A DNA stretch of 64,000 nt, taken from positions 157,035,043 to 157,099,042 of the forward strand of contig CP136069.1 of assembly GCA_032622095.1 (NCBI GenBank). The letters are read 5' to 3'. The notes under the pieces are model-generated. The model was given only the letters and a program-made list of their open reading frames with translations, did not search any database and was not told the origin of the DNA. The DNA comes from Siphonodentalium dalli (taxonomy: Eukaryota > Mollusca > Scaphopoda > Gadilida > Siphonodentaliidae). Shown here piece by piece: positions 6,100-63,045 of the stretch. The position numbers were made by a program, and so were the translations under genes. The stretch's first letter is position 1. Every line of letters begins with the position of its first letter.

Positions 6100-6205
6100 A
6101 CCCTTCTACGACTGGAGGCTCTGGAGCTTCTTGAAATTTTACGCAAACCCTGTGCCAAAACATTCTTTTATATACGTGAGTCCCCCAATGGGGACGAGAG
6201 AAAAC
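6100..6205. repeat. Decayed copy of the shared hairpin repeat and its TTAA-family end
   Basis: The stretch 'ctggagcttcttgaaattttacgcaaaccctg' (split here: CTGGAGCTTCTTG then AAATTTTACGCAAACCCTG) followed by GCCAAAACATTCTTTTATA resembles the 61.78-kb and 49.9-kb copies, in which CCTGTGCC leads into the hairpin. The second hairpin arm is lost. It sits in the ORF1-ORF2 spacer of the LINE. Confidence 0.55.
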
Positions 6206-14184: not shown

Positions 14185-14631
14185 GCACGAGAGGGGGGAT
14201 TCATCGGCCCTAAATTATGGTCTGTAGAGTGCCCAAAAAAAAAACAAATTTAAGATTTTTTGTTTTTTCGAATTTTTTTGTTTTGGGGTTGAATGTTTTG
14301 TTGGGTATGCTTAAGCATGCTATATCGAATTTAAAAAACAAACTGGATAAAACCTTAGGCGCATGTTATAACTCAAAACTATCACCAAGTATTCATAGTA
14401 ATAATTTTGATGCCCATGAAAAACGTAAGATTCCCTGGCACTAAACCTACAAAATAAGTCTGTTAAAGAATATAAGAAAAAATTATTAAAATTACAAATG
14501 ATGAAAAATTGTTAGGCCAATGCATTCTCTTATATATGCGAGGCGACCTATGGTCGACTCGCATATATAAGAGAATGCATTGGCACAGGGTATATGGGTT
14601 GATACAAAAATCGGACCTGGCACTCAAAGGG
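14185..14631 (-). mobile_element. TTAA MITE of the CCCTTTGAGTGCCAGG family, long variant
   Basis: The right end reads CCTGGCACTCAAAGGG followed by TTAA at 14632-14635, so the copy is inverted relative to those at 52 and 61-63 kb. It carries the shared hairpin at 14516-14584 (two 30-bp arms, perfect over GCCAATGCATTCTCTTATAT). The left end is decayed, but 'catcggccctaaatta' near 14200 matches the opposite end of the 61.1-kb copy. About 200 bp more internal sequence is present than in the short copies. Confidence 0.7.
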
Positions 14632-14909
14632 TTAAATGGAGACCGTGTCTAAAATTTCCAGTATTTGAGCGATTTGTTCAATCTGAAGTAACATCAAAAA
14701 TATTAACAATACGCCATGGGTGATTGTCGGTGGAACGAACATCGCATTCCAAAAAATGTGTTTGTAGATCAAAATATATCAACTTTCACTTTTATTGTAG
14801 TAATTAAGATATTCGAATCACTGAATTATACCAACTTGTAGATGAAACAAAAAACCGGAATAGGATCGACAAAGAGATCTTCTGATTCTTCTTATGTTAT
14901 TTCAAGACG

Positions 14910-17837
14910 AATGTGTTAAATACAATGTTCGATTTATGTAACCACATCCATAGAGATCTGTCTTGACCAGGATGTGTTAAATACAATGTTCGATATATGT
15001 AACCGCATCCATAGAGGTCTGTCTTGACCAGAATGTCTTAAATACAATGTTAGATTTATGTCACCGCATCCATAGAGGTCTGTCTTGACCAGAATGTCTT
15101 AACTACAATGTTAGATTTATGTCACCACATTCATTGAGGTCTGTCTTGATCAGAATGTCGTAATTACAATGTTAGATTAATGTCACTACATCCATAGAGG
15201 TCTGTCTTGACCAGAATGTCTTAAATACAATGTTAGATTTATGTCACCACATTCATTGAGGTCTGTCTTGATCAGAATGTCGTAATTACAATGTTAGATT
15301 AATGTCACCACATCCATAGAGGTCTGTCTTGACCAGAATGTCTTAAATACAATGTTAGATTTATGTCACCACATCCATAGAGGTCTGTCTTTACCATAAT
15401 GTCTTAAATACAATGTTAGATGTATGTCACCACATTCATAGAGGTATGTCTTGACCAGAATGTCTTAAATACAATGTTAGATTTATGTCACCACATTCAT
15501 AGAGGTCTGTCTTGACCAGAATGTCTTAAATACAATGTTAGATTTATGTCACCACATCCATAGAGGTCTGTCTTGACCAGAATGTCTTAAATACAATGTT
15601 AGATTAATGTCACCACATCCATAGAGGTCTGTCTTGACCAGAATGTCTTAAATACAATGTTAGATTTATGTCACCGCATCCATAGAGGTCTGTCTTGACC
15701 AGAATGTCTTAACTACAATGTTAGATTTATGTCACCACATTCATTGAGGTCTGTCTTGATCAGAATGTCGTAATTACAATGTTAGATTAATGTCACCACT
15801 TCCATAGAGGTCTGTCTTGACCAGAATGTCTTAAATACAATGTTAGATTTATGTCACCACATCCATAGAGGTCTGTCTTGACCAGAATGTCTTAAATACA
15901 ATGTTAGATTTATGTCACCACATCCATAGAGATCTGTCTTGACCAGAATGTCTTAACTACAATGTTAGATTTATGTCACCACATCCATAGAGGTCTGTCT
16001 TGACCAGGATGTGTTAAATACAATGTTCGATATATGTAACCGCATCCATAGAGGTCTGTCTTGACCAGAATGTCTTAAATACAATGTTAGATTTATGTCA
16101 CCGCATCCATAGAGGTCTGTCTTGACCAGAATGTCTTAACTACAATGTTAGATTTATGTCACCACATTCATTGAGGTCTGTCTTGATCAGAATGTCGTAA
16201 TTACAATGTTAGATTAATGTCACCACATCCATAGAGGTCTGTCTTGACCAGAATGTCTTAAATACAATGTTAGATTTATGTCACCACATCCATAGAGGTC
16301 TGTCTTTACCATAATGTATAAAATACAATGTTAGATGTATGTCACCACATTCATAGAGGTATGTCTTGACCAGAATGTCTTAAATACAATGTTAGATTTA
16401 TGTCACCACATTCATAGAGGTCTGTCTTGACCAGAATGTCTTAAATACAATGTTAGATTTATGTCACCACATCCATAGAGGTCTGTCTTGACCAGAATGT
16501 CTTAAATACAATGTTAGATTTATGTCACCACATCCATAGAGGTCTGTCTTGACCAGAATGTCTTAAATACAATGTTAGATTAATGTCATCACATCCATAG
16601 AGGTCTGTCTTGACCAGAATGTCTTAAATACAATGTTAGATTAATGTCATCACATCCATAGAGGTCTGTCTTGACCAGAATGTCTTAAATACAATGTTAG
16701 ATTTATGTCACGACATCCATAGAGGTCTGTCTTGACCAGAATGTCTTAAATACAATGTTAGATTAATGTCACCACATCCATAGAGGTCTGTCTTGACCAG
16801 AATGTCTTAAATACAATGTTAGATTTATGTCACCGCATCCATAGAGGTCTGTCTTGACCAGAATGTCTTAACTACAATGTTAGATTTATGTCACCACATT
16901 CATTGAGGTCTGTCTTGATCAGAATGTCGTAATTACAATGTTAGATTAATGTCACCACTTCCATAGAGGTCTGTCTTGACCAGAATGTCTTAAATACAAT
17001 GTTAGATTTATGTCACCACATCCATAGAGGTCTGTCTTGACCAGAATGTCTTAAATACAATGTTAGATTTATGTCACCACATCCATAGAGATCTGTCTTG
17101 ACCAGAATGTCTTAACTACAATGTTAGATTTATGTCACCACATCCATAGAGGTCTGTCTTGACCAGGATGTGTTAAATACAATGTTCGATATATGTAACC
17201 GCATCCATAGAGGTCTGTCTTGACCAGAATGTCTTAAATACAATGTTAGATTTATGTCACCGCATCCATAGAGGTCTGTCTTGACCAGAATGTCTTAACT
17301 ACAATGTTAGATTTATGTCACCACATTCATTGAGGTCTGTCTTGATCAGAATGTCGTAATTACAATGTTAGATTAATGTCACCACATCCATAGAGGTCTG
17401 TCTTGACCAGAATGTCTTAAATACAATGTTAGATTTATGTCACCACATCCATAGAGGTCTGTCTTGACCAGAATGTCTTAAATACAATGTTAGATTTATG
17501 TCACCACATCCATAGAGGTCTGTCTTGACCAGAATGTCTTAAATACAATGTTAGATTTATGTCACCATATTCATAGAGGTCTGTCTTGATCAGAATGTCT
17601 TAAATACAATGTTAGATTAATGTCATCACATCCATAGAGGTCTGTCTTGACCAGAATGTCTTAAATACAATGTTAGATTTATGTCACCACATCCATAGAG
17701 GTCTGTCTTGACCAGAATGTCTTAAATACAATGTTAGATTAATGTCACCACATCCATAGAGGTCTGTCTTGACCAGAATGTCTTAAATACAATGTTAGAT
17801 TTATGTCACCACATCCATAGAGGTCTGTCTTGACCAG
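14910..17837 (+). repeat. 61-bp satellite array, 48 units
   Basis: The unit begins AATGTCTTAAATACAATG and contains 'tccatagaggtctgtcttga'. 2,928 bp divide into exactly 48 units of 61 bp with no phase slips where I checked. Variants mark a higher-order arrangement: the unit with GATGTGTTAA plus GTTCGATATATG recurs at 14971, 16008 and 17167, i.e. at 17 and 19 units. A rarer variant 'tctttaccataatgt' occurs at 15.39 and 16.31 kb, exactly 15 units apart. There is no open frame of interest. This looks like a local satellite that grew by segmental unequal exchange. Confidence 0.95.
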
Positions 17838-17929
17838 AATTTGTTAACTTTAAAAAACAAGTTGAAACACGGAAAAGTTATATTTCATATGAATGTAGAA
17901 GATATCAGCTTAATGATCAGCCCTCTGTA

Positions 17930-18290
17930 AAATATATATCAGGTTATGTATCCTGATATATCAGGTTGTCTCGACCAATCCAGCTTCGAAGTACATTGCA
18001 ATGATTGTGCCAATGGATCCAAATTAGAAACCCAAGAAGGCTGATGGCGGCCATGCTTTCTAACGAATTTCGGAGGAAATAGATGGCTCCCATCTAGAGG
18101 TCACCCTGAAGATCCATATGAAGTTTGGTGACGGGTGTGTGATTAATCGCCTACTTGCCTCGTCCTCATCGTCACCAAACTTCACATGGAACCAACCACA
18201 AGCCTCCGCCAATGAGACGACATTCTGGATTGGTCGAGACAACCTGATATATCAGGATACATAACCTGATATATCAGGATACATAACCTG
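17930..18290. repeat. Inverted repeat enclosing a dispersed-repeat fragment
   Basis: The left arm 17930-17982 (ending in 'ggttgtctcgaccaatcca') is the reverse complement of 18224-18285 ('ggattggtcgagacaacc' onward). The interior carries 'gatggcggccatg' and 'agatggctcccatctagagg', which belong to the dispersed repeat seen at 11.3 and 55.3 kb. The 3' arm runs straight into the 22-bp array. Confidence 0.7.
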
Positions 18291-18750
18291 ATATATCAGG
18301 ATAATAACTTGATATATCAGGATACACAACCTGATATATCAGGATACATAACCTGGTATATCAGGATACATAACCTGATATATCAGGATAATAACTTGAT
18401 ATATCAGGATACGCAACCGGATATAACAGGATACATAATCTGATATATCAGGATAATAACCTGATATATCAGGATACGTAACCTGATATATCAGGATACG
18501 TAACCTGATATATCAGGATAATAACCTGATATATCAGGATAATAACCCGATATATCAGGATACGTAACTGATATATCAGGATAATAACCTGATATATCAG
18601 GATACGTAACCTGATATATCAGGATAATAACCTGATATGTCAGGATACGTAACCTGATATATCAGGATATTAACCTGATATATCTGGATACGTAACCTGA
18701 TATATCAGGATAAAAACCTGATATATCAGGATAATAACCTGATATATAGA
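18236..18750 (+). repeat. Palindromic 22-bp tandem array (CCTGATATATCAGG)
   Basis: About 24 copies of a 14-bp perfect palindrome, CCTGATATATCAGG, are separated by short linkers (ATACATAA, ATACGTAA or ATAATAA), giving periods of 21-22 bp. Linker variants alternate in blocks. Each unit could extrude as a small hairpin. It follows an inverted repeat containing the same palindrome. Confidence 0.9.
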
Positions 18751-19070
18751 GGATATCCACACTTTTTCAGTGGATATGGGTTATATCTCATGAGTGATGA
18801 CAAAACATTGAATTTCCACTAGTGGCTTTAGCCACGAGTGGAAATTCAAATGTTTTGTCATCACGAATGAGATTTAACCCATATCCACTGAAAAGTGTGG
18901 ATATTCTGTTTATTATATACTTTAGTTTACTTGCCTATGGCCCCCAATAAATGTCAATACATCAGAAATTTCACCAGTGGGATATCACTTATATCTCACT
19001 AGTGGGATATCACTTATATCTCACTGCTAAAACCTTATAATTCATGGGCAAGTATATAATAAATCAGGAT
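18751..19070. repeat. 154-bp hairpin plus flanking inverted arms
   Basis: 18751-18904 folds on itself about 18828: GGATATCCACACTTTTTCAG pairs with CTGAAAAGTGTGGATAT, continuing through 'tgatgacaaaac' and 'gttttgtcatca' to a central TCCACTAGTGG...CCACGAGTGGA. A second pair, 'ttattatatacttt...cttgcc' against 'gggcaagtatataataaa', encloses 18905-19065 and includes a 25-bp direct duplication of 'agtgggatatcacttatatc'. No coding capacity. Confidence 0.8.
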
Positions 19071-49840: not shown

Positions 49841-49955
49841 GCCAATGTATTCTCTTATACATGAGATGCTCCCTATGGGAGACTCACATATATAAGAGAA
49901 TGTATTGGCACAGGGTTTTTTCGCAAAATTTCAGGAAGCTCCAGTCATGGAAGGG
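49841..49955. mobile_element. Half of a TTAA MITE carrying the shared hairpin (CCCTTTCATGATGGGAGC family)
   Basis: The hairpin occupies 49841-49909 with its own loop variant (CTCCCTATGGGAG). It is followed by 'cacagggttttttcgcaaaa' + 'tttcaggaagctccagtcatgg' + AAGGG and TTAA at 49956-49959. A second family end, 'cccctatgaaaggg' plus TTAA (49992-49995), follows 36 bp later. The left terminal repeat is missing. Confidence 0.65.
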
Positions 49956-49999
49956 TTAATGTTGCACCAGCACAGCTCCCCTATGAAAGGGTTAAAATC

Positions 50000-50780
50000 G
50001 TAGAAATCAGTAGACGAATATGATTGGTCCAAATTTGGGCCAAAATGGACAATTGGGTGAAATGTTATCAATTTCGCAAAATTGACAGACATAATCGATG
50101 AGAAGACACCGTTTAATGACATAGCATCTTAGCCCTATTCACGGGTAATGGACTATTGGCTAATGTTCACAATTTTATCCACAGGAGCATAAAATTTTTC
50201 ACAAAAATCATGTTGTTGTTGTGACTACTAAATCTGGAATGATAGTGGTATAACTTTGAGCAGGGCAGGGATGAAGCACTATATGTATATATTAAATGTT
50301 CTCCTATGATTTCAACTATATAAGAATCATTTGCATTAAAGCCATTAAAAACAAGTCCGATCTGAGACATGGCCTCCACCTGTGAAATTCTGCCATGAGA
50401 AAATATTCCTGGGTATTATGAACACACAATTTTCGATTAATGTTCATGAGATCACATGTGAACTTTCTGTAAAGTAGTGCTGTGCTCAGACAGCCGTGTG
50501 AGCCTGTGTTGCATCCTAATAAAGGCACAAAATATTTTTGTTTCGAGCGCCTGTCATTTTTAAAATGGTACCTGTCCAATATTCAAACTCATCCTGTGGA
50601 CAAAAGAATTGCTATTAAAGGAGTTATTCTCAGCTGCAAAAACGAATAAAAACTGCTAAATAAAAAGGGAAAAATAAATAAAAAATTTAATTCAAAACCC
50701 GAATTTATTCTGACAAGAAACTCCAAATATAATTTGTGAGAGTTCACATGACATTTGAGAGTAACACAGTTTATCAGACA
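50000..50780. other. No recognisable gene
   Basis: AT-rich DNA with short frames on the minus strand and no recognisable domain. Confidence 0.4.
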
Positions 50781-50846
50781 GCAATATTCTCTTTTATATG
50801 CGAGGCTCCCTATGTGAGACTCGCATATATAAGAGAATGCATTGGC
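50781..50846. repeat. Shared hairpin module, copy with loop CTCCCTATGTGAG
   Basis: GCAATATTCTCTTTTATATG pairs with CATATATAAGAGAATGCATT. It is followed by CACAGGG and 'ttttcgcaaaatttcaggaa', as in the 49.84-kb copy. No terminal repeat or TTAA remains, so the element is a fragment. Confidence 0.7.
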
Positions 50847-51313
50847 ACAGGGTTTTCGCAAAATTTCAGGAAGCTCCAGTCAAAGAACGATCAATGGACT
50901 TTTTTAAATGGATTATTCATGTGAAATTCAAATAATTCCAACAACAGCAATAAATATTCATAGATAAATATCTGAGATGAGAATGAACAGAAAGACATTT
51001 CTCAATAAAGAGGAAAATTGCACAACTGCTCTCCTTCCAAATTAGAAATGCATAAACATGCTATATCACTCTTCTTATTGTCCGCATGCAACTTTTCTCA
51101 CCATATTCTAACAAACAACTGTTATCACAACATCACATTTTACATTCGGTACTCATATTCAATGACTAATAAATTCATACAGCGTATTTAGTATAATATC
51201 CAATTCATAAATGAGCCTTTGTGTGGTGACTATTTTATACATGTAACTAGCGACACCTGAAAACACAACGTACACCTGGATACATGTAGCAGACATGATA
51301 TTTCTAACACTGT

Positions 51314-51757
51314 CAAACCAGGATATAGTGTGTCTGACATTTGCAGAATGATGTCCGCAGAGGATGAATTTAGTGACGCTATCCCGTAAAGCAGGCTAGC
51401 ATCACCAAGTTCACCCTGTGGTAACCTCTTTCTGCTTAGGTGTCAACTGCTATGGGAGACATAGGATCAGATTAAAGTTCCCCAGTTGAAGTTGGTGATT
51501 CTCACCCATTAGTCACCTCGATTACTCAATTTATCTTCTGTAAATTAGGGGATATTGAAATTGAATAGAAGGGAAAACTAAAAACAATATTAGTTTGAGA
51601 CTATAGATCTATACTTCCCAAAAGTTGAGGCCTTAGCAGAATGAGGTCCTCAAAGGGTGGATTTGGTGATGCTAGCCCACAATGTAGGATATCACCACTA
51701 AATTAACCCTCTGGGGACCTCATTCTGCAAATGTCAGACACAATATATCCAGGCTTG
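51314..51757. mobile_element. Palindromic element, CAAGCC family, near-complete 8-bp target duplication
   Basis: The ends are CAAACCAGGATATAGTGTGT and, reverse complemented, CAAGCCTGGATATATTGTGT. The flanks AACACTGT (51306-51313) and TACACTGT (51758-51765) match at 7 of 8 bases. Each half contains a smaller hairpin with 'gcagaatgaggtcc' and 'ggacctcattctgc'. An 8-bp duplication and CA ends fit a hAT-like origin. No coding capacity. Confidence 0.75.
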
Positions 51758-51992
51758 TACACTGTATACAGACACAGACCACGTCTTCTGAAGATCATCT
51801 TCAATATACCGGTTACTGGCGCTTGAGGGGTCAGGTTACTACGTTTTCAGATTTGAGCAGCTTTCGACCAGGAACCAGTCTAACAGGAGACATTGATAGC
51901 GCGCAAATAAACAGACACAAGAGTCACAAAAACAATGACAGACAACAGTTAGATAGCAATTTTCATCCACTAAGCAGTTATATCAACTTTAA

Positions 51993-52220
51993 CCCTTTGA
52001 GTGCCAGGTCGATTTTTGTATCAACCCATATACCCTGTGCCAATGCATTCTCTTATATATGCGAGTCGACCATAGGTCGCCTCGCATATATAAGAGAATG
52101 CATTGGCCTAACAATTTTTTTTACAATTTTTTACAATTTTAATAATTTATTCTTATATTCTTTAACAGACTTATTTTGTAGGTTTAGGGCCGATGAGATC
52201 GGCCCCTGGCACTCAAAGGG
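51993..52220 (+). mobile_element. 228-bp TTAA MITE, CCCTTTGAGTGCCAGG family, intact
   Basis: TTAA occurs at 51989-51992 and 52221-52224. The ends CCCTTTGAGTGCCAGG match exactly in inverted orientation. The hairpin module lies at 52039-52107, preceded by 'atcaacccatataccctgt'; a 'ggccgatgagatcggcc' dyad lies by the right end. Nearly identical copies are at 61.9 and 62.8 kb, so the family moved recently. Confidence 0.9.
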
Positions 52221-52229
52221 TTAAGATGA

Positions 52230-53080
52230 AAGTCATTCATTAAAATGTACTTTTAGAGTTGTTGTATTTCGCGCGATAGACTGGTACTATTATTTGTTCA
52301 CCGAAAAGTTGAAAATGTAGTAACCTGGCCCTTTCTGAGTTACTGGCTGAGTGTTTGTACAAGGCAATTATCACAGTTAAACTCTTAGTAACTCTTCTTG
52401 ATGGATCATTTTGGGTATACCCGTTTTTGACTGAGCCTTCCGAGTCCACCTGTTGTACCTTTCAGGGGTTGCTGTTGCTGAAGCTGTGTCGGGTCAAACA
52501 TCGATGGCATTGATGGTATCCCGTCTTGCATTGGAGCGGCAGGTTCAGACTTCTGGTCTGCAGTCTGTGAATAGAGAGATAAAGCTTATGATATTTAAGA
52601 AATGATCGTAGTGGGTGTGTGTGTTATTGGGGGATACAGCGTTGTGGTCGTTGGGGCACATTCTGTAAATGACGAGAAGATGTATTATGACAATAGTTAT
52701 GGACAAACAATTGGGTATGACTGGTGTATCGATACTTAAGAAATGAATGTATAGTGGGTGTGTGTTATTGGGGGGATACGGCACTGTGATCATTGGGGCA
52801 CATTGTGTAAACCATGAAGCACTACATTCATTTCTTATATTTATATAGCTTTATTGATGATATATTCCCATAAAAAAGCTGAGCAAAATTTTCACATTTG
52901 TAGCTGCAAATATATTGAACCCCCTCCGTTTAAAGGATTGCTATCCTGATGAAACAACAAAACACTATCGGAAAGCCACCCCTATTGTGATCACAATGAA
53001 CCAAGTCCCATAACAATCGCGTAATAAATAAATAAATAATACCCCCACCGGTTGTCGGCTATCTCCGTCGCAAATCCTCA
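52230..53080. other. No gene; one tandem duplication
   Basis: A ~145-bp direct repeat around 52600-52680 and 52745-52810 carries 'agtgggtgtgtgt' and 'cattggggcacatt'. The rest is unremarkable. Confidence 0.5.
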
Positions 53081-53082
53081 TA

Positions 53083-53185
53083 TGACGTCAAATGAGTAAA
53101 CTAATTAAAAACACGGAATCGGAGTCGGAGTTAATTGTGTCTACCTATATGACGTCATATGAGTGGCGATGGAAAATGCGGAATC
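53083..53185. promoter_or_regulatory. Two CRE-like sites in a ~65-bp duplication
   Basis: TATGACGTCAAATGAGT at about 53081 and TATGACGTCATATGAGT at about 53148 each contain TGACGTCA, the CREB/ATF palindrome. The flanking text (AAACACGGAATCGGAG versus AAATGCGGAATCGAGC) is partly duplicated. They lie about 300 bp upstream of a TATA-like box and the THAP frame. Function not shown. Confidence 0.35.
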
Positions 53186-53384
53186 GAGCGCGTGAGTGTA
53201 ATGGAATTACTGCGGGGCATGGCATGTCAATAACATTGTGTACACGTGGTGAATTTTCAATGCCCGGTGAGTTATCTTCACTTGTGATTTGTCATAAGTG
53301 CTGCTTGGAAAGTTATTGTTTTGACAAGAAATATAGAAGGCCGATTGAGCGGGGTAGATAACACTTTCGTGTCAAAAATAAAGC

Positions 53385-53393
53385 TTATAAAAA
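53385..53393 (+). promoter_or_regulatory. Candidate TATA box upstream of THAP frame
   Basis: CTTATAAAAA lies about 110 bp upstream of the THAP ATG at 53498. Confidence 0.3.
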
Positions 53394-53497
53394 CACGAGC
53401 CGACATGTGAACTCTATTCGGGTGCGTGTTCACGATGTTGTTTTAATTTTCCATATATATGCCCCGATTGTCCCGTATTTACAATTCATTCCTGACA

Positions 53498-53977
53498 ATG
53501 CCAAATAAATGCAGTGTTTTCGGCTGTGGCCGGTATAGTGACTCTCAATTAGGTATAATTCTGGATTCATTTCCAAAGGACGTTCGTTTATGTGACATTT
53601 GGTGGGATTTCTGTGGGAAACCCGTTACTCAAAATCAGAAACTATTGAAGTAGTTGCCAACGAAATAGTCCTGAATTTGTTCCGTCCACTTCGAAAAAAT
53701 GTGTTTTGAGCACAACGCGAGTACACTTGGCCCGAACAGTGGCTACCGACGACAACTCAGAGGAAATGCAACCCCCACGTTAAACAAATGAACCACCGAC
53801 GAGAATGCCATCCCAAGAAAAACGTCAACTCCCGTAAAGAATATAAATTTGCCGGAGCTTCCAGGACGTGAGAATATCCAATCGAACCTATCGCTAAAAA
53901 GCCAATACATATACCAAATAAAGAGCGTTTCATTTGACGAGTCAGTCATGGTTACGAATACATACCATTGCAGTTAA
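53498..53977 (+). pseudogene. THAP-domain protein, in-frame nonsense codons
   Basis: The ATG at 53498 opens MPNKCSVFGCGRYSDS, then LDSFPKDVRLCDIWWDFCGK, the first half of a THAP C2CH zinc-binding DNA-recognition module (Cys5, Cys10, FP, W). The same frame continues, after stop codons at 53651, 53666 and 53672, into CSVHFEKMCFEHN and RRQLRGNATPTLN, the canonical second half (C-x2-H, F, then R-R and P-T). Another TGA lies at 53789, after which the frame runs to 53975-53977. No indel is needed anywhere, so the frame is conserved over 480 bp with four premature stops. The two TGA codons could be CGA lost by CpG deamination. THAP domains occur in host transcription factors and in P-type transposases; which source applies here is unknown. 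Confidence 0.7.
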
Positions 53978-53999
53978 AGTGGGGTGTATATTGATGAAT

Positions 54000-54300
54000 A
54001 ATTTAGTAAAGTATTCACGATGACAACTCGAGTCCCCATTTTCCTTCACTATGACTCAATAAAGAGCGTTCCATGTTAAGAGTATTCCTTATATGGTGCG
54101 AATAAAAAGAGTTTAATAAACCGGAAATTGCTACGACTTTGACGGATATATAAAGCATGTATATCGCAAGTTCGTGTGCATGTATTTACGTGTATTGGTG
54201 TAAACAGTAAATAATCACGATGACAACTGTTCTAAGTCGAGTCCCAATTTTCCTTTACCATGACTAAATAAAGAGCGTTCACTGTAAAATAAATCACAGA
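54000..54300 (+). repeat. Direct repeat with AATAAAGAGCGTT motif
   Basis: 'cacgatgacaact', then 'gagtcccc/aattttcctt', 'catgact.aataaagagcg' occurs near 54018-54070 and near 54217-54282. A third AAAGAGCGTT lies in the THAP region at about 53928. The same motif, inverted, is in the TTAA element at 5.6 kb. Confidence 0.6.
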
Positions 54301-54484
54301 TGAAGACTTTGATATATTAATAAGTATATTCTACCACGATGTATAAATAAATTATCGTATATTATTTCGGTTTTACGGTCAGTTATCTATATAAACATGT
54401 GCTCGTGTTTCTCTTTTTTTCGTTATCGGAATAGTCAAATTATATTATATATTCATTGCATATATGCGAAGACTTGCACAGTTA

Positions 54485-54900
54485 ATACTAATAGAAATTA
54501 TCAAATTCAAAATTCAAATTGTTTATTCACATAAACCACAATCGTGGTACAAATGGTGAAAAAGAATTACAAAAATAAATTAAAATCATATCGTAAACAT
54601 TCCAGTGTCCAGATCGTACGTAAAATGCGGCATGGCTTTATAATAACAACACATCGCGATACATATAATATTAACACGCTAAAGACGTTTAATTGTGAGA
54701 ACACGATGTATTTGCATTCGCAGTGTTCTCCCATTATGCGACAAACGTCAAAAGCCGCGATGGAATTCATGATCGCTTTGCGCGTGCAAACTTATGGTAT
54801 CGTTGAATATCTATGCGTTGTCAATGAGTTACCACGTGGTCGATCATGTGACTATGCTTCTGTTTACACGTGACAATCATGTGATGTGGCCGATGATCAC
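54485..54900 (-). other. Possible LINE 3' end or unrelated frame
   Basis: On the minus strand the sequence ends with AATAAACAATTTGAATTTTG and AATTTGA, resembling pentameric/hexameric LINE tails. Upstream in that orientation no RT or C-terminal motif was recognised. A 109-codon plus-strand frame (54544-54873) has no known domain. Unresolved. Confidence 0.3.
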
Positions 54901-55189
54901 GTGACTCGTCTACAACACAAAATCTTCGGCTAACTTCGGAATTGTTTTTAATCGTTATAAAAATAACGATTAGCGGCCGAATATTAGATTACATGCGCAT
55001 AATGGACATTTTATGTATATATTATCGGTATATTGAAAGAAAATACTAAAAAAAATTCAGGATCATATTCCTTTAAGTGGTCCAGCTAATTTGATATGAT
55101 GCTGGTATGTTAAAAAGATATATTTAAGAGTGAAAGTGTCAATGACACTGTAGCTCTACTTGAGAGAGGGGATAATGTCATACATTACA

Positions 55190-55790
55190 ATCAATGGAGT
55201 GATAAGGAATGCGGAAAGTCGAGATGTTTAATACTTGAACCATATGAAGCTTGGGATGAATCATATAATAAATGTTGGTTGCAGGGCATACCAAAGAATT
55301 TAGTCATGCAACGAGTAAAATCCAAGATGGCTGCTGGAGGCCATGTTTTTATCGAATTTGAGTGATTTTCGATAAAAAAAACATGGCCTCCGGCAGCCAT
55401 CTTGGATTAGCACTGATCTAAGGTCACCTGGATGATCCATATGGAGTTTATGATCAATCAGATGGAAAATTTTGGTTTTAGTCACACAAACATTTGGAAA
55501 ACAAATTTATACGTCTATCAAAAAGTGATCATGAACATGCCTGTAAATGTTCTCCAATAAATGTGGTTGCATGGTGTGCCGATTGATTCAGATATGAAAT
55601 TCTAAATGGCTGCTGATGCAATGTTTTTAAACGATATTCTGAAAAATTTGATAGCTCCCATCTTCATTGTAGGTCACCTCAAAGATTCTTATGAAGTTTT
55701 GTGAGGATTGGATGTCAAATTTGATTTTCATCATTCTTTCAGTCGAACATAGCCAATAATGATGAAAAATATGTCTTTGTAAGTCTGGAA
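55190..55790. repeat. Dispersed repeat with hairpin around 55,362
   Basis: 'aaaatccaagatggctgctg' and 'cagccatcttggatt' pair as an inverted repeat at 55318-55407, and 'tagctcccatcttcattgta' + 'ggtcacctcaaagattctta' continues the family seen at 11.3 and 18.1 kb. Noncoding. Confidence 0.65.
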
Positions 55791-56053
55791 CCCTAAGTCA
55801 ATCTTTAATGTATACAGTGAGGGTGAAGTTAAAATCACCCTAAAACTTCTAACCAAAAATACTCGACATGATGTTCTAATATTTGATAACTGGTATCTGA
55901 AAACATACAGATTACGATGTCAAATTACAGAAGCCTGGTCCATCAAATCACCATTTTACATTCTAGTGCAAACTGCAATACATAATGACATGTATAACTT
56001 TTGATCATTCTTTTTATTGTTCTACTGCTGAAACTCTCACGCACAAAATCAAT

Positions 56054-56188
56054 CAAGCCTTGAAATAGTGTGTCTGTCATTTGCAGAATGAGGTCCCCAG
56101 AGGGTTAATTTAGTGATGGCTAGCATCACCAAATTCACCCTTTAGGAACCTCATTCTGCAAATAACAGACACACTATTTGCAGTCTTG
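56054..56188. mobile_element. 135-bp palindromic MITE, CAAGCCTTGAAATAG family
   Basis: CAAGCCTTGAAATAGTGTGT at the left, with the inverted copy ending 'ctatttgcagtcttg' at the right. The arms include 'gcagaatgaggtcc' and meet at TAGTGATGGCTAGCATCAC. No convincing target duplication in this copy. Related to 51.3, 60.5, 62.7 and 63.97 kb. Confidence 0.8.
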
Positions 56189-56189
56189 G

Positions 56190-57290
56190 GCATATTTAGT
56201 TGCAGGTTTACCAGGGTTTACAGGTATAAATTATAAATTGGTAGTTTCTCCTTGTTTCTCTGTACTTTTACTTCTGAAAAACAAGAAGTTGCTTCACCCT
56301 GACATTTACCATAGATTGGTCCCTTTGTTATGGTTAGTGAGTATAGTGTTTAATAGATATAAGATACATGCACTCATGCGTTTCTAATCTAGTCATGGCA
56401 AAGCCATTTCCTTTATTACTATAATCAAGCATTCAATAATTGTTATAGAGTAAACAAAGACAAGTTAAGACAACAAAACATGTTTACTTTTTATTTATTG
56501 TACAAATAAAATAATGTTTACATATGTCATATTTTAGTGAGAAATCAGAAATATGAAAAAATCTGAGGTAAATTTCTCTTGTCAATGGATGGTGGATGAG
56601 AGCATACCACTTTCACCAGCTGCCATGTGGCATGTAACAGATTTTCAATAGACTCTTTAACATGCTTTATATAGTTAAAGAAGGCTATTTGGAAAAGGGT
56701 CACTGTGTATTTGGAGGGTGTCTATCCATGTGGCATTGTGTTCATATTATTATATGTCAATGCTACAAATCCTTACAAATTTTGGTTTACATATATATGA
56801 CCCCAGAAGTGGCTTGTTTTACAATCATTCACTTTCTGCACATGTACTATTTGATATGTAGCCTACAGTAATGAACTAACATGCAGAAGAATCATATTAG
56901 ACAAGTGTACATGTTTCTACAGTGCCGCCAAAGAAAATTATGTGTCTACTAGACAAATAATTTTCCTCAGAGTTGCTGTAGAAACATCAATTTTTAGCCA
57001 CATAATTTATAGCCATGTAAGTAGCCTGTAAGACACATTTTAGGGGTGGCAATGCGCGGGTCAGTATGCAAGTTTGGAGGAAGTGCATTGTGCTGTTCTG
57101 AGGATCAGTTCTGTTATAATCTATATCCAGACTGATAAGGGGATCAACACTCAGTGAAAGGGTTTATTTATTTTGGGGTTCCTAATTACTGATATGTAAA
57201 ATGATGTTATTTCCCATTCAACATTTTTGAGGCATTCAAAGAAATATTAAATTACTCCTTATTAAATAGTAGAAGAGGCACATATGAAGC
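56190..57290. other. No recognisable gene
   Basis: Short frames only. A dyad 'aaaattatgtgtctactaga' with 'aataattttcctc' lies near 56935-56970. Nothing supported. Confidence 0.4.
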
Positions 57291-57298
57291 TCCATTAA

Positions 57299-57445
57299 CC
57301 GTTTCATGATGAGAGCTTTGTGAAATTTTGTGAAATACCCTGTGCCAATGCATTATCATATATAAGAGAATACATTGGCCTAACAATATTTACCTTGACC
57401 TGGTAAGCCAATGAATTCTCTTATATATGCAAGGCTCCCTATGCA
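57299..57445. mobile_element. Decayed TTAA MITE with one collapsed and one half hairpin
   Basis: TTAA at 57295-57298 precedes CCGTTTCATGATGAGAGC, a variant family end. The hairpin at 57344-57379 has lost its loop and inner stem. A half copy, GCCAATGAATTCTCTTATAT, begins at 57407. The right end is not seen. Confidence 0.6.
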
Positions 57446-58850
57446 AAATGCTAAGTGTTTCATTAGAAAACGAAGACGGACAACAAACAAAAGAAACGTC
57501 TTTGTAATGCACAGAAAACAAGACAAAATTGAGGATCAAGCAGACAGTAACTGTGCAACTATTCAAAAGATTCAACATAAAAACACACAAGTCAACAAAT
57601 AATATAGAAACAACTTTCACTTGATGAAAGAAAATAAATAAAACAATATTTTCAAGTTAATTGATAGCTTCTAAAGACATGTATTGTTTTTAGTACAATA
57701 TATGTTGAAAATAATAATCAAGCTCTCTCCCCAACACCCTCTCCACACATAATATCATAATATCCATCAGATAGTGCTTACGCTGATAGTCACATAAAAT
57801 ATATTTTAAAATAAATTATTAGAATTTTGAGTATATCTCCCAACTAATGGGTTTATTATAAAATTAATAAATTGGTAAAGAATTGGAAAAACATTTCAAG
57901 GGAATTTTTTTTAGAGTATTTTCGCTCTTTGGGCATTGTCATATCTCAATCTGCAGACCATATCAACACCATGTGTTGTTCTAGAGGAGTGTTTAGACGA
58001 CTGTGTTGCGTCCATTGTGTTGTCCATTGAAATTTGGAATATTGGCAACAGCACTAAGTTGCAATGCATCTGTTATATTGTGACTGTTAGTGCATCCAAT
58101 GGAGAGATTCTGTTTTTAATGCAATGCAAGCACCAACGATACCTTATATGGCATGGAAGTGCATATGCTATGAAGTATGTGAAGCAGAGGGAATTTTATT
58201 ATTATTATTAAAATCTACCAATAAATGCCATTCCTGGAATATTTTTGTTGAAATACGTTTTTAAAAGGCAGAAAGGAACTCGGTTATTTGTGTATTTCCT
58301 ACATTCGCTTTGATGTCGATTTGCAGCAAAAAAAAGCACCACAAAGCCCAAGTACAATAGAAATGGACGTAAGTCAACTGCTGCTGCCCTATGTCTATAA
58401 CCTGGACAATTGTAAACTCTGTGTTTTAATGCAATGCACCCATCTAAATGGCAATGTGAAGACAACGGATCATGGCATCGCAACATCAGGACACAACAGA
58501 TTTGTCTAAACACCACTCTAATATAAAATTTGTAAACAAAAGACCAAGAATAAAAAACCTTGCTTGATTAGAAATGACCTATACCATGGCTTAATATCCA
58601 AGATTCTAACTATAATACAAAATGTATCTAATAATTTGATATATATGTACAGGGTGCCACACAAACATTAGTAGTTAGTTTGACAGTTGCAGTTAGCAGA
58701 AATGATGTCGGAGGCGCTGGGTTACCTTAGTTGTGAATTGCTGAACTTCTCGTCCGAGCGAGCTCATTGAACTTGAACGAGAGAGCTACAATGGAATAAT
58801 GATGATGATACAGGTGATGGTGATTCATGGACCTCAACTCATCTCCAGAA
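57446..58850. other. No recognisable gene
   Basis: AT-rich sequence with frames below 105 codons on both strands and no domain. A partly repeated pair 'gacgactgtgttgcg' and 'ttaatgcaatgca' occurs at 58.0-58.4 kb. A real small gene cannot be excluded. Confidence 0.4.
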
Positions 58851-58889
58851 TGCTTAACCCTTTTCTTTACTAAATACTCACTGACAAGT

Positions 58890-59119
58890 ACAGTAATGCT
58901 CTAAATAATCGACTCCTTAACCACAGCGGAATTATGGGTAATTTTTCAGGATTTAGTTGGAAATATGGCTTGTTGCCATTGATCAGAAAGCTCTCAATGA
59001 GAGCTTTCCGATGAATGTCAACAAGTCATATTTCCACTAAATCCTGAAAAATTACCCATAATTCCAGTGATAATTCCGCTGTGGTTAAGGATTTGATTAT
59101 TTAGAGCATTTAATACTGT
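58890..59119. repeat. 230-bp hairpin
   Basis: Arms of about 100 bp: 'atgctctaaataatcgactc' + 'cttaaccacagcggaattat' pairs with the text ending 'gattatttagagcatttaat'. The centre is GCTCTCAATGAGAGC near 59003. A CCCTTTTCTTTACTAAATAC end next to TTAA (58855-58858) lies just to the left, so it may be the core of a TTAA element. Confidence 0.8.
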
Positions 59120-59327
59120 CATTTTCTTAGGAGATGGTCAAATAACAGGGCTTAAAATCCATTGGAAGAGAGGAGAATCAAAATCAAATTGGATCTTTTG
59201 GTAGTTATTAATCAAAATATCAGTATGATGTGCCAAAATCAGATTACAAGGGCTGCAGCCCCGAGCGGGGTGGGTACAGAAGGTGGTTATGCATGGATTT
59301 CCATATTGTACTTTTTTTCGAAATTAA

Positions 59328-59733
59328 CCCTTTACCCAACAGAACGGCTCTGTGCCAATGCATTCTCTTATATATGCGAGTCGACCATAGGTCGCCTCGC
59401 ATATATAAGAGAATGCATTGGCTTAACACATATTAAAAATGATCAAATTGTCAAAGAATGTAGAAAATATTATAAGAAAAAATGGTAAAAAGTGTTAATT
59501 TTTTTTTTTTTTTAGGCCAATGCATTCTCTTATATATGCGAGGCTACCTATGGTCGACTCGCATATATAAGAGAATGCATTGGCACAGGGCATAACTGTA
59601 ACCATCACAATGTGGTCAATGAACCGGTTCCAATGACATCAATATTTGTATGGTGTTATTGAGACAGACCGAAGATATTTTAGGCTGTTGAAGCTTTATA
59701 TGGGCGTTTTTGGCCGTTTTGTTGGGTAAAGGG
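59328..59733. mobile_element. 406-bp TTAA MITE, family CCCTTTACCCAACARAACGG, with two hairpin modules
   Basis: TTAA occurs at 59324-59327 and 59734-59737. The ends CCCTTTACCCAACAGAACGG and, reverse complemented, CCCTTTACCCAACAAAACGG differ at one position. It carries two copies of the shared hairpin in opposite orientation, 59354-59422 and 59516-59584. No coding capacity. Confidence 0.85.
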
Positions 59734-59737
59734 TTAA

Positions 59738-60524
59738 CAGGCCATCCTTCAACTGACATCTATCATCTTTCAGCCAAATTGCTGCTAATATTTTTTCACA
59801 AAAAAGAGTTTTCTAAGGCAATCAGATGCTGCCAATTGCGCAAATCAATTTTTTATTCTAGCCAGTGTTTGTCACGCAAATCTTTACGTGAGTCGATTCA
59901 GTGATTCGTGTGGAATATTAAGCCCTGAGATAATTGAGAGGTTAAGATTGAAAAGATATAATTTCGCCCTTCAAGAAATATCAGACAATACTATTCGTCA
60001 TGGTGTTGTGGCAGATTGTGACCAATTGTAGAAATATTATATTCTGTTGATAAACTCTGCACAACACTGAGCGTGAATGTTGCACACAAGTTGTGACCTC
60101 ATTTAATGCTGTCTTTAATGTGGCACGTTACCAATCTCATTGATAACTAATGAAATCGTTGGGTTGAGTTGCATGGACTTGATTTGGAAACATAACATAG
60201 CTGATTACTGGATAATACTTTCCTGTCTCAGAAAGGTCTTATGCTTGACGGGCAAAGCTTGGAATTTTATCATTTTAACTCTCTATTAGTTTGAATGGTA
60301 AAGAGAGCGGCACATCTATGAACAGCTGGTTGAAAGTCAGATATTCAACAGTTATGAGATTGGAGATCTTGTTTTCTGCACTTGAATCAATAAAAAGTCA
60401 CTCAAAATGAATAACAGCATTTTCCTACTATTCAGCTTGATTTGCAAAAATAATGGTGGGGAGAAAAATACAATGTTGATTGATAATATAAGCGCAACAA
60501 GCTGGTATTCAAAGTTACCTCAAC
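59738..60524. other. No recognisable gene
   Basis: AT-rich spacer; nothing supported. Confidence 0.4.
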
Positions 60525-60532
60525 TTCACATC

Positions 60533-60786
60533 CAAGCCTTGAAATAGTGTGTCTGTCATTTGCAGAATGAGGTCCCCAGAGGGTGAATTTAGTGATGCTA
60601 CCCCGCATAGTGGGCTAGCATCACCAAATTCACCCTCTGGGAACCTCATTCTGCCGAGTTGTAAGCAGAATGAGGTCCCCAGAGGGTGAATTTGGTGATG
60701 CTAGCCCGCTATGCGGGATAGCATCACTAAATTCACCCTCTGGGGACCTCATTCTGCAAATGACAGACACCCTATTTCAAGGCTTG
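60533..60786. mobile_element. 254-bp double-hairpin palindromic MITE with perfect 8-bp target duplication
   Basis: The target duplication TTCACATC is at 60525-60532 and 60787-60794. The ends are CAAGCCTTGAAATAGTGTG and, reverse complemented, CAAGCCTTGAAATAGGGTG. Inside, two head-to-head hairpins each carry GCAGAATGAGGTCCCCAGAG and its complement, so the strand can fold either as one long stem or as a three-armed cruciform. CA ends and an 8-bp duplication fit hAT. No coding capacity. Confidence 0.9.
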
Positions 60787-60898
60787 TTCACATCTGACAA
60801 CAATGCTTCTGTAAGGTCCGACAATGAGACAACATTCAGTCAAAAACAAATCAAAGATATCTGTTTGTCAACAATAAAGCCACAAAACTGATAGTTAA

Positions 60899-60985
60899 CC
60901 CTTTCATGATGGGAGCTGCGTTGGTGCAACATTAAATATCCTGTGCCAGTGCATTGTCTTATATATGCGAGTCTTCCACAGACGA
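60899..60985. mobile_element. Truncated TTAA MITE, CCCTTTCATGATGGGAGC family
   Basis: TTAA at 60895-60898, then CCCTTTCATGATGGGAGCTG and 'gttggtgcaacattaa', followed by half of the hairpin from 60945. The right half is missing. Confidence 0.65.
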
Positions 60986-61074
60986 AAAAAACTAATTGTT
61001 AATTTCGCTGAACTCTTGATTACAGTTGCCCCGATTTGATTCGATGAAATAATTGTGATTCACAAGAGCCTTAA

Positions 61075-61340
61075 CCCTTTAAGTGCCAGGTCCGATTTTT
61101 GTATCAACCCATATACCCTGTGCCAATGCATTCTCTTATATATGCGAGTCGACCATAGGTCACCTCGCATATATAAGAGAATGCATTGGCCTAACAATTT
61201 TTCATCATTTGTTATTATTATTTACAATTTTAATAATTTTTTTAAAATCTAAAAAACAAAAAAAGGTTTTTTATTTTTTTAGGGTCGATTTTACAGACCG
61301 TAAATTAGGGCCGATGAGATCGCCCCTGGCACTGAAAGGG
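61075..61340 (+). mobile_element. 266-bp TTAA MITE, CCCTTTGAGTGCCAGG family
   Basis: TTAA occurs at 61071-61074 and 61341-61344. The ends are CCCTTTAAGTGCCAGG and, reverse complemented, CCCTTTCAGTGCCAGG. The hairpin module is at 61122-61190. A/T runs lengthen the interior compared with the 52-kb copy. Confidence 0.85.
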
Positions 61341-61780
61341 TTAATGATAAGCAGTTTTCTCAGGAAATATCCAGATAATACTTCAACAAACATCCTGGTT
61401 ATTTGTTGAACTTATTAGCTGCACATTTAAAAAAAAAAACGAATGAATGAGAGTATTATGTCTTCTGCACTTGTTTTATCCAAAACACCCCTACAAATGA
61501 ATAATAGATTATTCCAGTAGACACTTTTATAGCTGAATGGGAGAATCAATTAAGCACTGAACAGTCTAAGTTGTTGTAGTACACAGGACAGGCACAATAC
61601 AAATGATGATTAATTTAAACAGCTCCTAATGTCATATTGATATACGGATTACAAATAGGCGACATTTAGTTACGGATACATATAAAAGATCTGAAATACG
61701 TTATAGACATATTGTGAGACTATTTTAGTAACCAAACTGATAAGCTAGTACCCAGACGCAATGAAAGAACATAGCATTAA

Positions 61781-62174
61781 CCCTTCCATGATTGGAGCTT
61801 CCTGAAATTTTGCGAAAACCCTGTGCCAATGCACACTAATGCATATATTACTGTATATCTCCTATGGGAGACTTGCATAAAAAGAGAATGCACTGGCACA
61901 GGATCTTTAACCCTTTGAGTACCAGGTCGATTTTTGTATTAACCCATATACCCTGTGCCAATGCATTCTCTTATATATGCGAGTCGAACATAGGTCGCCT
62001 CGCATATATAAGAGAATGCATTGGTCTAACAATTTTTTTACAATTTTTTACAATTTTAATAATTTATTCTTATATTCTTTAACAGACTTATTTTGTAGGT
62101 TTAGGGCCGATGAGATCGGCCCCTGGCACTCAAAGGGTTAATACCGCATAAGCACAACTCCCGTCATGAAAGGG
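61781..62174. mobile_element. Outer TTAA MITE hosting a younger TTAA MITE
   Basis: TTAA occurs at 61777-61780 and 62175-62178. The ends are CCCTTCCATGATTGGAGC and, reverse complemented, CCCTTTCATGACGGGAG. It carries its own hairpin (61825-61897) and is split by the 61911-62137 element. Confidence 0.8.
61911..62137 (+). mobile_element. Inner 227-bp TTAA MITE, CCCTTTGAGTGCCAGG family
   Basis: TTAA occurs at 61907-61910 and 62138-62141. The ends are CCCTTTGAGTACCAGG and, reverse complemented, CCCTTTGAGTGCCAGG. The hairpin is at 61957-62025. It is nearly identical to the 51993-52220 copy and sits inside a different TTAA family, which gives the insertion order. Confidence 0.9.
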
Positions 62175-62179
62175 TTAAA

Positions 62180-62660
62180 TATGGAACAGTAATAACACTG
62201 AAAATTGCAGTTACATTGATCGTACCATTTCAGGAACACTATTTACTCACAAAGGAAAATATTTATTCCTCAATTCAGGATGCTCACCCAAGTGAAGTGT
62301 TGCCCATAGTCCAAATACTGCCACTCAGATAGTGGCTCATGAAAATAATACCCTGCATCTCACGGCTCATATGCTACTTGAGAAGAATGGTTAACTGTTG
62401 TCTAGACTATATTATCACTACAGTGAAGTGATATGAGATGCTCTGAAGTGTGAAATTCACATTCTTCAATCTGAGGCTTGTGATTATCACTATAAACACT
62501 ACGGTGAAGTGATATGAATCTCAAATTTGAGTCAAGATGAGGTGAGCTGTAAAAACAGACAAGCCACTGCAGGCAGGTCAAATGAGAGAAACATCAACCA
62601 AAATACTAGTTCATGTTTCCTGCGACTTAAACCAGATTGTGATATGCCAGAAGATGAGGT
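62180..62660. other. No gene; local dyads
   Basis: Repeated 'cactacggtgaagtgatatga' and 'cactacagtgaagtgatatg' phrases (62417 and 62497, split from longer text) form a short direct repeat. Nothing coding. Confidence 0.45.
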
Positions 62661-62664
62661 CTAC

Positions 62665-62775
62665 GCAGAACGATGTCCCCAGAGGATAAATTTGGTAATG
62701 CTAGCCTGGCACATCACTAAATCCACAATCTGGGGACATCATTCTGCAAATGACAGACACTCTATTCCAAGGCTA
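62665..62775. mobile_element. Remnant of the CAAGCC palindromic MITE
   Basis: 'gatgtccccagagg', 'atgctagc', 'ctggggacatcattctgc', 'gacagacactctattccaag' in the family order. The left terminal 35 bp are missing. Confidence 0.65.
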
Positions 62776-62815
62776 GCATCTAAAAAGCAGAAATATCATA
62801 AGCTGGTTTATTTAA

Positions 62816-63041
62816 CCCTTTGAGTGCCAGGTCCATTTTTGTATCAACCCATATACCCTGTGCCAATGCATTCTCTTATATATGAGAGTCGACCATAGGT
62901 CGCCTCGCATATATAAGAGAATTCATTGGCTTAACAATTTTTTTTTTTTTTTTTTACAATTTTAATAATTTATTCTTATATTCTTTAAGACTTATTTTGT
63001 AGGTTTAGGGCCGATGAGATCAGCCCCTGGCACTCAAAGGG
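62816..63041 (+). mobile_element. 226-bp TTAA MITE, CCCTTTGAGTGCCAGG family, intact
   Basis: TTAA occurs at 62812-62815 and 63042-63045. The ends CCCTTTGAGTGCCAGG match perfectly. The hairpin is at 62862-62930 with one arm change (GAATTCATTGGC). Confidence 0.9.
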
Positions 63042-63045
63042 TTAA

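Follow-up and report, generated by a model that had tools for sequence, protein, structure and literature searches.

When one and the same hairpin recurs in small transposons whose ends differ, a question of origin has to be asked: has the hairpin been kept by selection, has it been exchanged between families, or do all its carriers simply descend from one element? The question is raised by a 64,000-nucleotide stretch of the genome of the scaphopod Siphonodentalium dalli (hereafter, the window), where a sequence-only reading had listed a hairpin module of about 69 bp at a series of sites, inside carriers with three differing termini. All the listed sites were confirmed: the hairpin, here called H, is of full length and largely or wholly free of mismatches at 14516, 49841, 52039, 59354, 59516, 61122, 61957 and 62862, degenerate at 50781 and 61825, collapsed at 57344, and halved at 6154, 57407 and 60945; the three termini, too, are as claimed (Table 1). 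MITEs are usually classified by their ends, but in the present elements it is the core that is stable and the termini that vary.

Table 1. Hairpins and their carrier elements in the window
Feature	Positions	Strand	Details
A-family TTAA MITE, complete, single hairpin	51989..52224	+	TTAACCCTTTGAGTGCCAGG at both ends
Hairpin H, exact reference copy	52039..52107	+	sequence match, DNA fold
A-family MITE	61071..61344	+	hairpin 61122-61190
C-family element	61777..62178	+	CATGATTGGAGCT left end, CATGACGGGAGTTG right end; degenerate hairpin 61825-61897; A element sits in its TTAA
A-family MITE nested in C element	61907..62141	+	hairpin 61957-62025
A-family MITE	62812..63045	+	hairpin 62862-62930
A-family MITE, one end truncated	14456..14635	-	hairpin 14516-14584; far end approximate
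B-family TTAA MITE	59324..59737	+	ACCCAACARAACGG ends; two inverted hairpins, AT-rich spacer
Hairpin H of B element, exact	59354..59422	+	
Second hairpin of B element, inverted	59516..59584	-	
C-family right part	49841..49995	-	hairpin 49841-49909 (CTCCC/GGGAG variant); tandem C-type termini up to 49995
C-family hairpin, distal arm degenerate	50781..50846	-	
C-family remnant	57294..57443	+	left end, collapsed hairpin 57344-57379, C-type spacer, half hairpin 57407-57443
C-family left end	60895..60980	+	half hairpin from 60945
C-family remnant	6104..6193	+	half hairpin from 6154

H is a nearly perfect 69-bp DNA hairpin with perfect arms of 27 bp, and its exact reference copy at 52039 folds as DNA with -35.4 kcal/mol (z -15.57). 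Within the window, a 20-mer of H has 22 matches at up to 3 mismatches, against 0.04 expected, a number reached in 0 of 100 shuffles. Exact pattern counts over the 2.23-Gb genome give 43,883 + 43,749 = 87,632 copies of the 69-mer and 135,127 + 135,097 matches to the 27-mer arm, with 0 matches for either pattern written backwards as a control. The loop variants CGACCATAGGTCG and CGACCTATGGTCG, distinguished in the earlier reading, proved to be the same loop seen from either strand; the genuine variant, CTCCC-TAT-GGGAG, belongs to the C family. The exact 20-mer occurs neither in the viral collection nor in the bacterial and archaeal ones, and a tRNA search found none. The partial likeness of a 1.36-kb tandem repeat (locus L013) to the start of CCCTGT-H was judged by eye to be due to chance. 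Degenerate hairpins inside a tandem repeat at locus L003 may represent a further carrier.

In the window, H is carried by piggyBac/TTAA-type MITEs with three different ends, denoted A, B and C, all with CCC...GGG termini and an outermost TTAA on either side; a complete C element is seen only at 61777-62178, and the A element nested in it (61907-62141) has TTAA on both sides. Elements of the A and B types that contain H measure 204-427 bp and have a high copy number, and no coding capacity was seen in the TTAACCC...GGGTTAA carriers. The genome-wide count by carrier that had been proposed as a check yielded 12,922 exact junctions for A, 36,730 for the long side of B, 11,236 for C1 and 6,728 for D, a fourth carrier found elsewhere in the genome; the CCCTGT-H junction of all carriers has 152,002 exact copies. 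The three D copies read (two at locus L008, one at L003) are without TTAACCCTTT ends: in the stretches read, which may not reach their outer ends, they have GTCGGGATTTTTTTTACCCTGT or other flanks and no TTAACCC. Among 62 TTAACCCTT[TC] ends in 264 kb, a survey in which both ends of one element are counted and nested neighbours can contribute, the hairpin core lies at most 450 bp away from 16 of 16 A ends, 10 of 10 B ends and 8 of 10 C ends, and from 1 of 26 ends of other types, the sole positive being C2-like. One A-ended element (L034) is without H.

The sites at 59354 and 59516, which had been taken as separate, are both hairpins, but they belong to a single B element (59324-59737), in which they lie inverted to each other. 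Similarly, the length of 69 bp applies to H, but the shared unit is longer: CCCTGT-H-CYTAACA-(spacer)-TGTTAG-H'-ACAGGG, in which the hairpins are inverted relative to each other. This unit has a sharp outer edge: across six left-flank representatives, identity is 6/6 in CCCTGT (5/6 with C2, where the first base is T, so that the edge is imperfect in C2), and further 6-nt blocks agree in 0-4 of 6, which is the chance level. The consensus of H is identical in 13 A elements and 11 B elements, and that of 30 non-C copies of the 264-kb sample, with carriers pooled, is exactly the reference H. The spacer 3' of H aligns between A and D with a score of 84 (maximum of 54 in 500 shuffles) and between B and D with a score of 75 (maximum of 59 in 500 shuffles); the C1 spacer does not clearly exceed shuffles in comparison with A, B or D (19-91 of 500 shuffles score as high), so that a shared AT-rich spacer is established for A, B and D only.

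We consider it probable, at about 60%, that H belongs to a non-coding cassette, a discrete unit that was joined to different transposon ends and then amplified by piggyBac-type transposases. The ancestral cassette would probably have had the form given above, with an AT-rich spacer between inverted hairpins; it could have been joined to different ends via recombination, template switching or insertion, the outcome being MITE families with a common core and differing termini, of which the TTAACCCTTT-ended ones would then have been spread by piggyBac-type transposases. Among the loci read, neither a free-standing cassette flanked by a target duplication of its own nor an unoccupied site was encountered, so that exchange is a proposed route. 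What is observed is a core with a sharp CCCTGT edge and a huge copy number, set between different ends (with TTAA termini in A, B and C), in a genome with long-frame piggyBac-type transposase genes. The view of a conserved module in differing carriers is supported, and of the two options offered for it, selection on the hairpin or exchange between families, exchange is the better fit, considering the sharp CCCTGT junction, the spacer common to A, B and D, and the A-ended element without the module. As far as can be judged from sequence, the combinations of core and ends appear to have been made by exchange rather than by descent, and the A, B and C MITEs appear to be moved by piggyBac enzymes; the hairpin would have been kept since it is helpful, or at least harmless, to transposition.

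If, alternatively, all carriers went back to one ancestral element whose ends diverged while its middle did not, TTAACCCTT, CCCTGT and H would be expected to be common to A, B and C, as they are, and the similar distance of H from the end in A and simple C elements (48-51 bp) would fit as well. However, the sharp edge speaks against a slow drift of the ends of a single element and favours a discrete cassette that came to be joined to different ends and was then amplified: identity is 6/6 up to one boundary and at chance level past it, with no gradient. Moreover, the consensus of H does not differ between A and B, the A-D spacer can still be aligned, and in B a distance of 30 bp separates H from one of the ends. 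Such plain descent, the possibility that the earlier reading had set against its own proposal, is accordingly quite unlikely. It also seems highly improbable that the hairpin is kept as a precursor of small RNAs (siRNA, miRNA or piRNA). MITE-derived small RNAs are known, and the size and stability of H (RNA fold, -54.3 kcal/mol) suit a precursor, but an Rfam search of the window gave, at the gathering threshold, no described RNA family to which H would belong, the pair changes in resident copies are mostly one-sided, and a DNA hairpin accounts for the symmetry equally well. The covariation of the arms, which had been proposed together with a test for compensation, is genuine but narrow: 17 compensated cells, against 65 one-sided ones, exceed column shuffles (mean 3.66, maximum 10 in 2000 shuffles), but they fall in four pairs and mostly in related copies. 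The symmetry of the arms may be maintained by hairpin repair at the DNA level, as it may be by selection.

The possibility that selection acts at transposition itself, the palindrome being a subterminal transposase-binding or synapsis element such that only copies with an intact hairpin multiply, is to be regarded as tentative and rather doubtful; the cysteine-rich domains of the enzyme would, by analogy with piggyBac and piggyBat, grip the palindrome. Indirect support comes from low variation within families: counting all variants, H differs at 6/1218 sites and the flanks at 70/1979 in B elements (p 2e-9), and at 9/772 and 45/1360 sites, respectively, in A elements (p 0.002); for singletons alone, p is 0.056 (B) and 0.007 (A). 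Furthermore, two deleted hairpin forms have 7 and 108 exact copies as compared to 87,632 of intact H, the patterns being of differing length, but these scarce forms may be mere late deletions in unmoved copies. (A deletion common to loci L021 and L025 was considered as a spread of a hairpin-less form and rejected, since the loci, with the same A and B elements at nearly equal spacing, look like one duplicated segment and the form has 7 copies.) Transposase domains do bind palindromes in piggyBat and piggyBac, as described in PMC11707139, but the palindromes described there are far shorter, 19 bp in piggyBac; in addition, the distance between the element end and the start of H is 30 to about 150 bp in A and B, and complete A elements have H at one end only. 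The genome contains at least 128 matches to the piggyBac transposase domain, many in open frames of >600 aa. In one of these genes, a TTAACCCTTT end lies upstream, about 550 bp from the domain, with next bases different from those of the A, B and C ends; this end, the one transposase-linked end reached, has a short palindrome of another kind, and H is absent. H was absent from all the transposase flanks read, which covered 900 bp on the 3' side of eight loci and 950 bp on the 5' side of two and reached one clear element end; nor did they reveal an autonomous element with A, B or C termini.

Taken together, these data suggest that small transposons can keep a common core cassette while their ends change. 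One could even envisage the double-hairpin cassette as a hyperparasite of transposons, with an edge of its own (CCCTGT...ACAGGG), which would pass between families of more than one type and raise the success of the ends it joins; this idea is speculative and, on balance, unlikely, but, if true, it would account for the >87,000 perfect copies. Since this abundance is found in one genome together with many long-frame piggyBac-type genes and with carriers both having and lacking the cassette, the role of an internal hairpin as a driver of MITE success is directly testable here.

Among known systems, the piggyBac/TTAA MITEs are similar in their TTAACCC...GGGTTAA termini, the lack of visible coding capacity and the presence of superfamily transposases in the genome; unlike in the usual MITEs of this type, here the core is common to families with unrelated subterminal sequence, and D is without the TTAACCCTTT end in the three copies read. 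Palindromic DNA near the ends is also described for piggyBac and piggyBat (PMC11707139), at up to 19 bp as compared to 69 bp here. A likeness in organisation, a conserved module in otherwise different elements, is also seen in the highly conserved domains of SINEs, one of which, the V domain, occurs in the MER6 MITE (PMC6887750); SINEs, unlike the present carriers, spread through RNA. None of six sequence strings of H or of the ends was found in the open-access papers searched, and the titles listed held no direct precedent other than a study of Acropora corals. There, CMITE families with a conserved core, divergent ends and TTAA were reported, without an explanation of this arrangement (Wang et al. 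2010, PMC2872659). In both systems, one conserved internal region is common to a number of TTAA-type MITE families that differ in their terminal repeats, and the coral elements are also similar in having CCCTTT-like termini, piggyBac-like partners and an element formed by CMITE insertion in TTAA (PMC2872659). However, the cores are unrelated: the 60-bp coral core aligns with the present cassette with a score of 13 on either strand, as reached by 254 and 354 of 500 shuffles. The coral CMITEs are about 100 bp long, with one 75-bp core and an estimated 1,600 or so copies (PMC2872659), whereas the present A and B elements that contain H are of 204-427 bp; the core here, a hairpin of 69 bp that is often present twice in inverted orientation, has 87,632 perfect copies. 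Thus, at the level of sequence comparison, the arrangement of a common core with differing ends is of a kind already known from corals, and the cassette sequence and the doubled hairpin are different.

The sequence-only reading had described a hairpin module repeated in the window, and this repetition was borne out: a 20-mer of the hairpin, hereafter H, gave 22 near matches there against 0.04 expected. The reference copy (52039-52107) folds as DNA at -35.4 kcal/mol (shuffle mean -6.59, z -15.57) into 27 base pairs, a T/C mismatch, 5 further pairs and a 3-base loop. The window, at C9:157035043-157099042 of a genome of 2.23 Gb in 9 contigs, also contains reading frames that, read by eye, look reverse transcriptase-like and PHD-finger-like and so point to an animal genome. 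Its copies of H are carried by three TTAA-type MITE families with different ends, A, B and C, as listed in the table.

Carriers of the hairpin H in the window (window positions)
Family	Feature	Position	Ends	Remarks
A	family		TTAACCCTTTGAGTGCCAGG	single hairpin, 50-51 bp from one end
A	element	51989-52224		
A	element	61071-61344		
A	element	61907-62141		
A	element	62812-63045		
A	element, truncated	14456-14635		
B	family	59324-59737	TTAACCCTTTACCCAACARAACGG	two hairpins, inverted
C	family		TTAACCCTTYCATGAYNGGAGCT	most copies broken
C	element	61777-62178		A element sits in its TTAA
C	remnants	6104, 49841, 50781, 57294, 60895		

Other repeats lie in the same DNA. The truncated A element has a 61-bp tandem array (14909-17847; 48 copies, 93% matches) at a distance of ~270 bp, and the unit of a 22-bp tandem repeat at 18241-18755 includes the palindrome CTGATATATCAG. 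A ~217-bp near-perfect palindrome (AATGCTCTAAATAATCGACTCCTTAACCACAG...) at 58892-59110, present in at least 9 of 20 ten-kb pieces, is about as widespread as H.

In the whole genome, the 27-base arm has 270,224 exact matches on both strands; because a hairpin with two exact arms counts twice, the number of hairpins in which an arm is exact is at least ~135,000. The full 69-mer occurs in 87,632 mismatch-free copies, and the backwards patterns of arm and 69-mer, serving as controls, gave 0 matches. Local duplication explains part of this abundance, some of the first matches on contig C1 repeating at periods of ~14.5 and ~11 kb. Eighteen 10-kb pieces (L003-L020), taken at round coordinates regardless of hairpin content, contained 25 exact arms, that is, 139 per Mb, in agreement with the whole-genome value of 121 per Mb; the distribution is patchy, with an arm match (up to 5 substitutions) in 8 of the 18 pieces and none in 10. 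Counting copies per carrier family, as had been proposed from the sequence, yielded 12,922 exact junctions for A, 36,730 for the long side of B, 11,236 for the C subtype C1 and 6,728 for D, a fourth carrier from outside the window. Their sum of 67,616, which omits the short B side and subtype C2, is only a rough share of the 152,002 exact CCCTGTGCCAATGCATTCTC junctions of all carriers, since the pattern lengths are unequal and further carriers may exist.

In two fetched pieces (L008, L003), D has the structure GTCGGGATTTTTTTTACCCTGT-H ... H'-ACAGGG, where H' is an inverted second copy. Among the matches listed, 9 plus/minus pairs lie ~360-470 bp apart, a spacing as for an element bearing the D junction sequence at both ends; no TTAACCCTTT was seen in three D copies as far as these were read. 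On the minus strand of L003 (~1600-4100), degenerate H-type hairpins lie within the tandem repeat AACTCCAAATGGGGAATGATGTGGACAAGTGAGACTAACGTG, perhaps as a fifth carrier or a satellite capture. The piece L013 holds a ~1,357-bp tandem repeat, seven units per 10 kb, with the TTAACCCTTTGTAGTGAAG motif in every unit.

CCCTGT stands directly upstream of H in every family (TCCTGT in C2); outside it, six representatives, compared ungapped, agree only at chance level. Downstream, CYTAACA (CTTACA in C2) precedes an AT-rich spacer, and the downstream alignments score 84 for A-D (shuffle maximum 54), 75 for B-D (59) and 64 for A-B (equalled in 1 of 500 shuffles). Those of C1 and C2 are weak: among 500 shuffles, 91, 76 and 19 scored as high for C1 against A, D and B, respectively, and 10, 11 and 5 for C2. 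The common upstream CCCTGT and downstream CYTAACA and spacer therefore indicate that the unit is a cassette, more than a hairpin; for A, B and D, sequence similarity points clearly to a shared unit extending beyond H. In 264 kb (the window and L001-L020), the hairpin core was found within 450 bp of 16/16 A, 10/10 B and 8/10 C ends, and of 1 of the 26 other ends, a C2-like one, among 62 TTAACCCTT[TC] ends, a tally in which both ends of each element count and nested neighbours (e.g. 61777 and 62178) may add. An A-ended element of 188 bp without a hairpin (L034) shows an A-like terminal repeat, then a different continuation. The best reading, with a probability of roughly 0.6, is that MITE families have exchanged a core cassette.

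That the hairpin acts in transposition is a good second reading, and one compatible with cassette exchange. For the comparison of conservation, 13 A elements (the H-less one excluded) and 11 B elements were used, with the 27 locus-finding bases masked and flanks counted outside the AT-rich spacer. In these small samples, part of whose loci were still picked via nearby hairpins, variants affect 9/772 sites in H versus 45/1360 in the flanks of A (p 0.002) and 6/1218 versus 70/1979 in B (p 2e-9); with private variants only, p is 0.007 and 0.056, respectively. Variants common to several B elements number 0 in H and 47 in the flanks, and most of the B difference therefore lies in such shared variants, at the level of sublineages that multiplied. 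H bases also decay in copies resident in the genome.

The proposed co-variation of the arms held in part. Of 47 hairpin copies, 10 had more than 4 gaps and were excluded; in the other 37, 1,086 arm-pair cells are unchanged, 65 are changed on a single side, 17 carry a compensated double change and 3 an uncompensated one. The 17 compensated cells exceed the maximum of 10 in 2000 column shuffles (mean 3.66), which leave kinship uncontrolled, but all fall in four pairs (5-65, 27-43, 30-40, 31-39). A single feature inherited within the C lineage seems to account for the swap at 30/31 and 39/40, and hairpin-templated repair of palindromes would yield the same compensated pattern. Collapsed hairpins are present in A, B and C; of eight listed, two are clean, with microhomology of 3 and 1 nt, and six also have substitutions. 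Deletions of such kind are a possible outcome of a DNA hairpin during replication. There are 108 exact copies, over nine contigs, of a form with a 17-bp deletion, found in one A element and in B elements, and 7 of a second form; these two among many possible deletions, with pattern lengths different from that of the intact 69-mer, have not multiplied, as compared to its 87,632 copies.

The piggyBac transposase domain (Pfam PF13843) has at least 128 matches in the genome, many in frames of more than 600 aa and several with identical scores; this is a lower bound because 116 of 649 candidates were scored. No H was found in the 900 bp 3' of eight transposase loci or the 950 bp 5' of two, the best match to the 27-mer being no better than 9 edits. 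One transposase 5' end, TTAACCCTTTATCTGCTATACGCGACATAAGTCGCG, comprises the TTAACCCTTT common to carriers, then divergent sequence and a short palindrome. Of the eight loci, L053 and L056 seem to belong to one lineage, and L057 and L058 to another; L053, whose 562-aa frame has no stop, and L056, with a 584-aa frame, have almost the same sequence on the 3' side. Among the matches listed, at least 14 piggyBac-like ones have a 562-aa frame holding TGA (2 of the 14 also TAG), and at least 12 loci have the domain split in two (10 of the 12 in a 584-aa frame). A palindromic repeat (GCAGAATGAGGTCCCCAGAGGGTGAATTTGGTGATGCTAGCC...) at 51314-51757, 56054-56188, 60533-60786 and 62665-62784 was also read by eye in L055, on the 3' side of a gene for a piggyBac transposase.

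According to PMC11707139, piggyBac-type enzymes bind short palindromes close to transposon ends, so that H may plausibly have a role in transposition; since inhibitory subterminal sequences are described there as well, its effect could be positive or negative. PMC9921582 reports that mPing mobility is promoted or inhibited by internal sequences. The H module is real and very abundant. The CMITEs of Acropora corals (PMC2872659) are the same kind of phenomenon as the H cassette, whereas the sequence of their core is unrelated to it.
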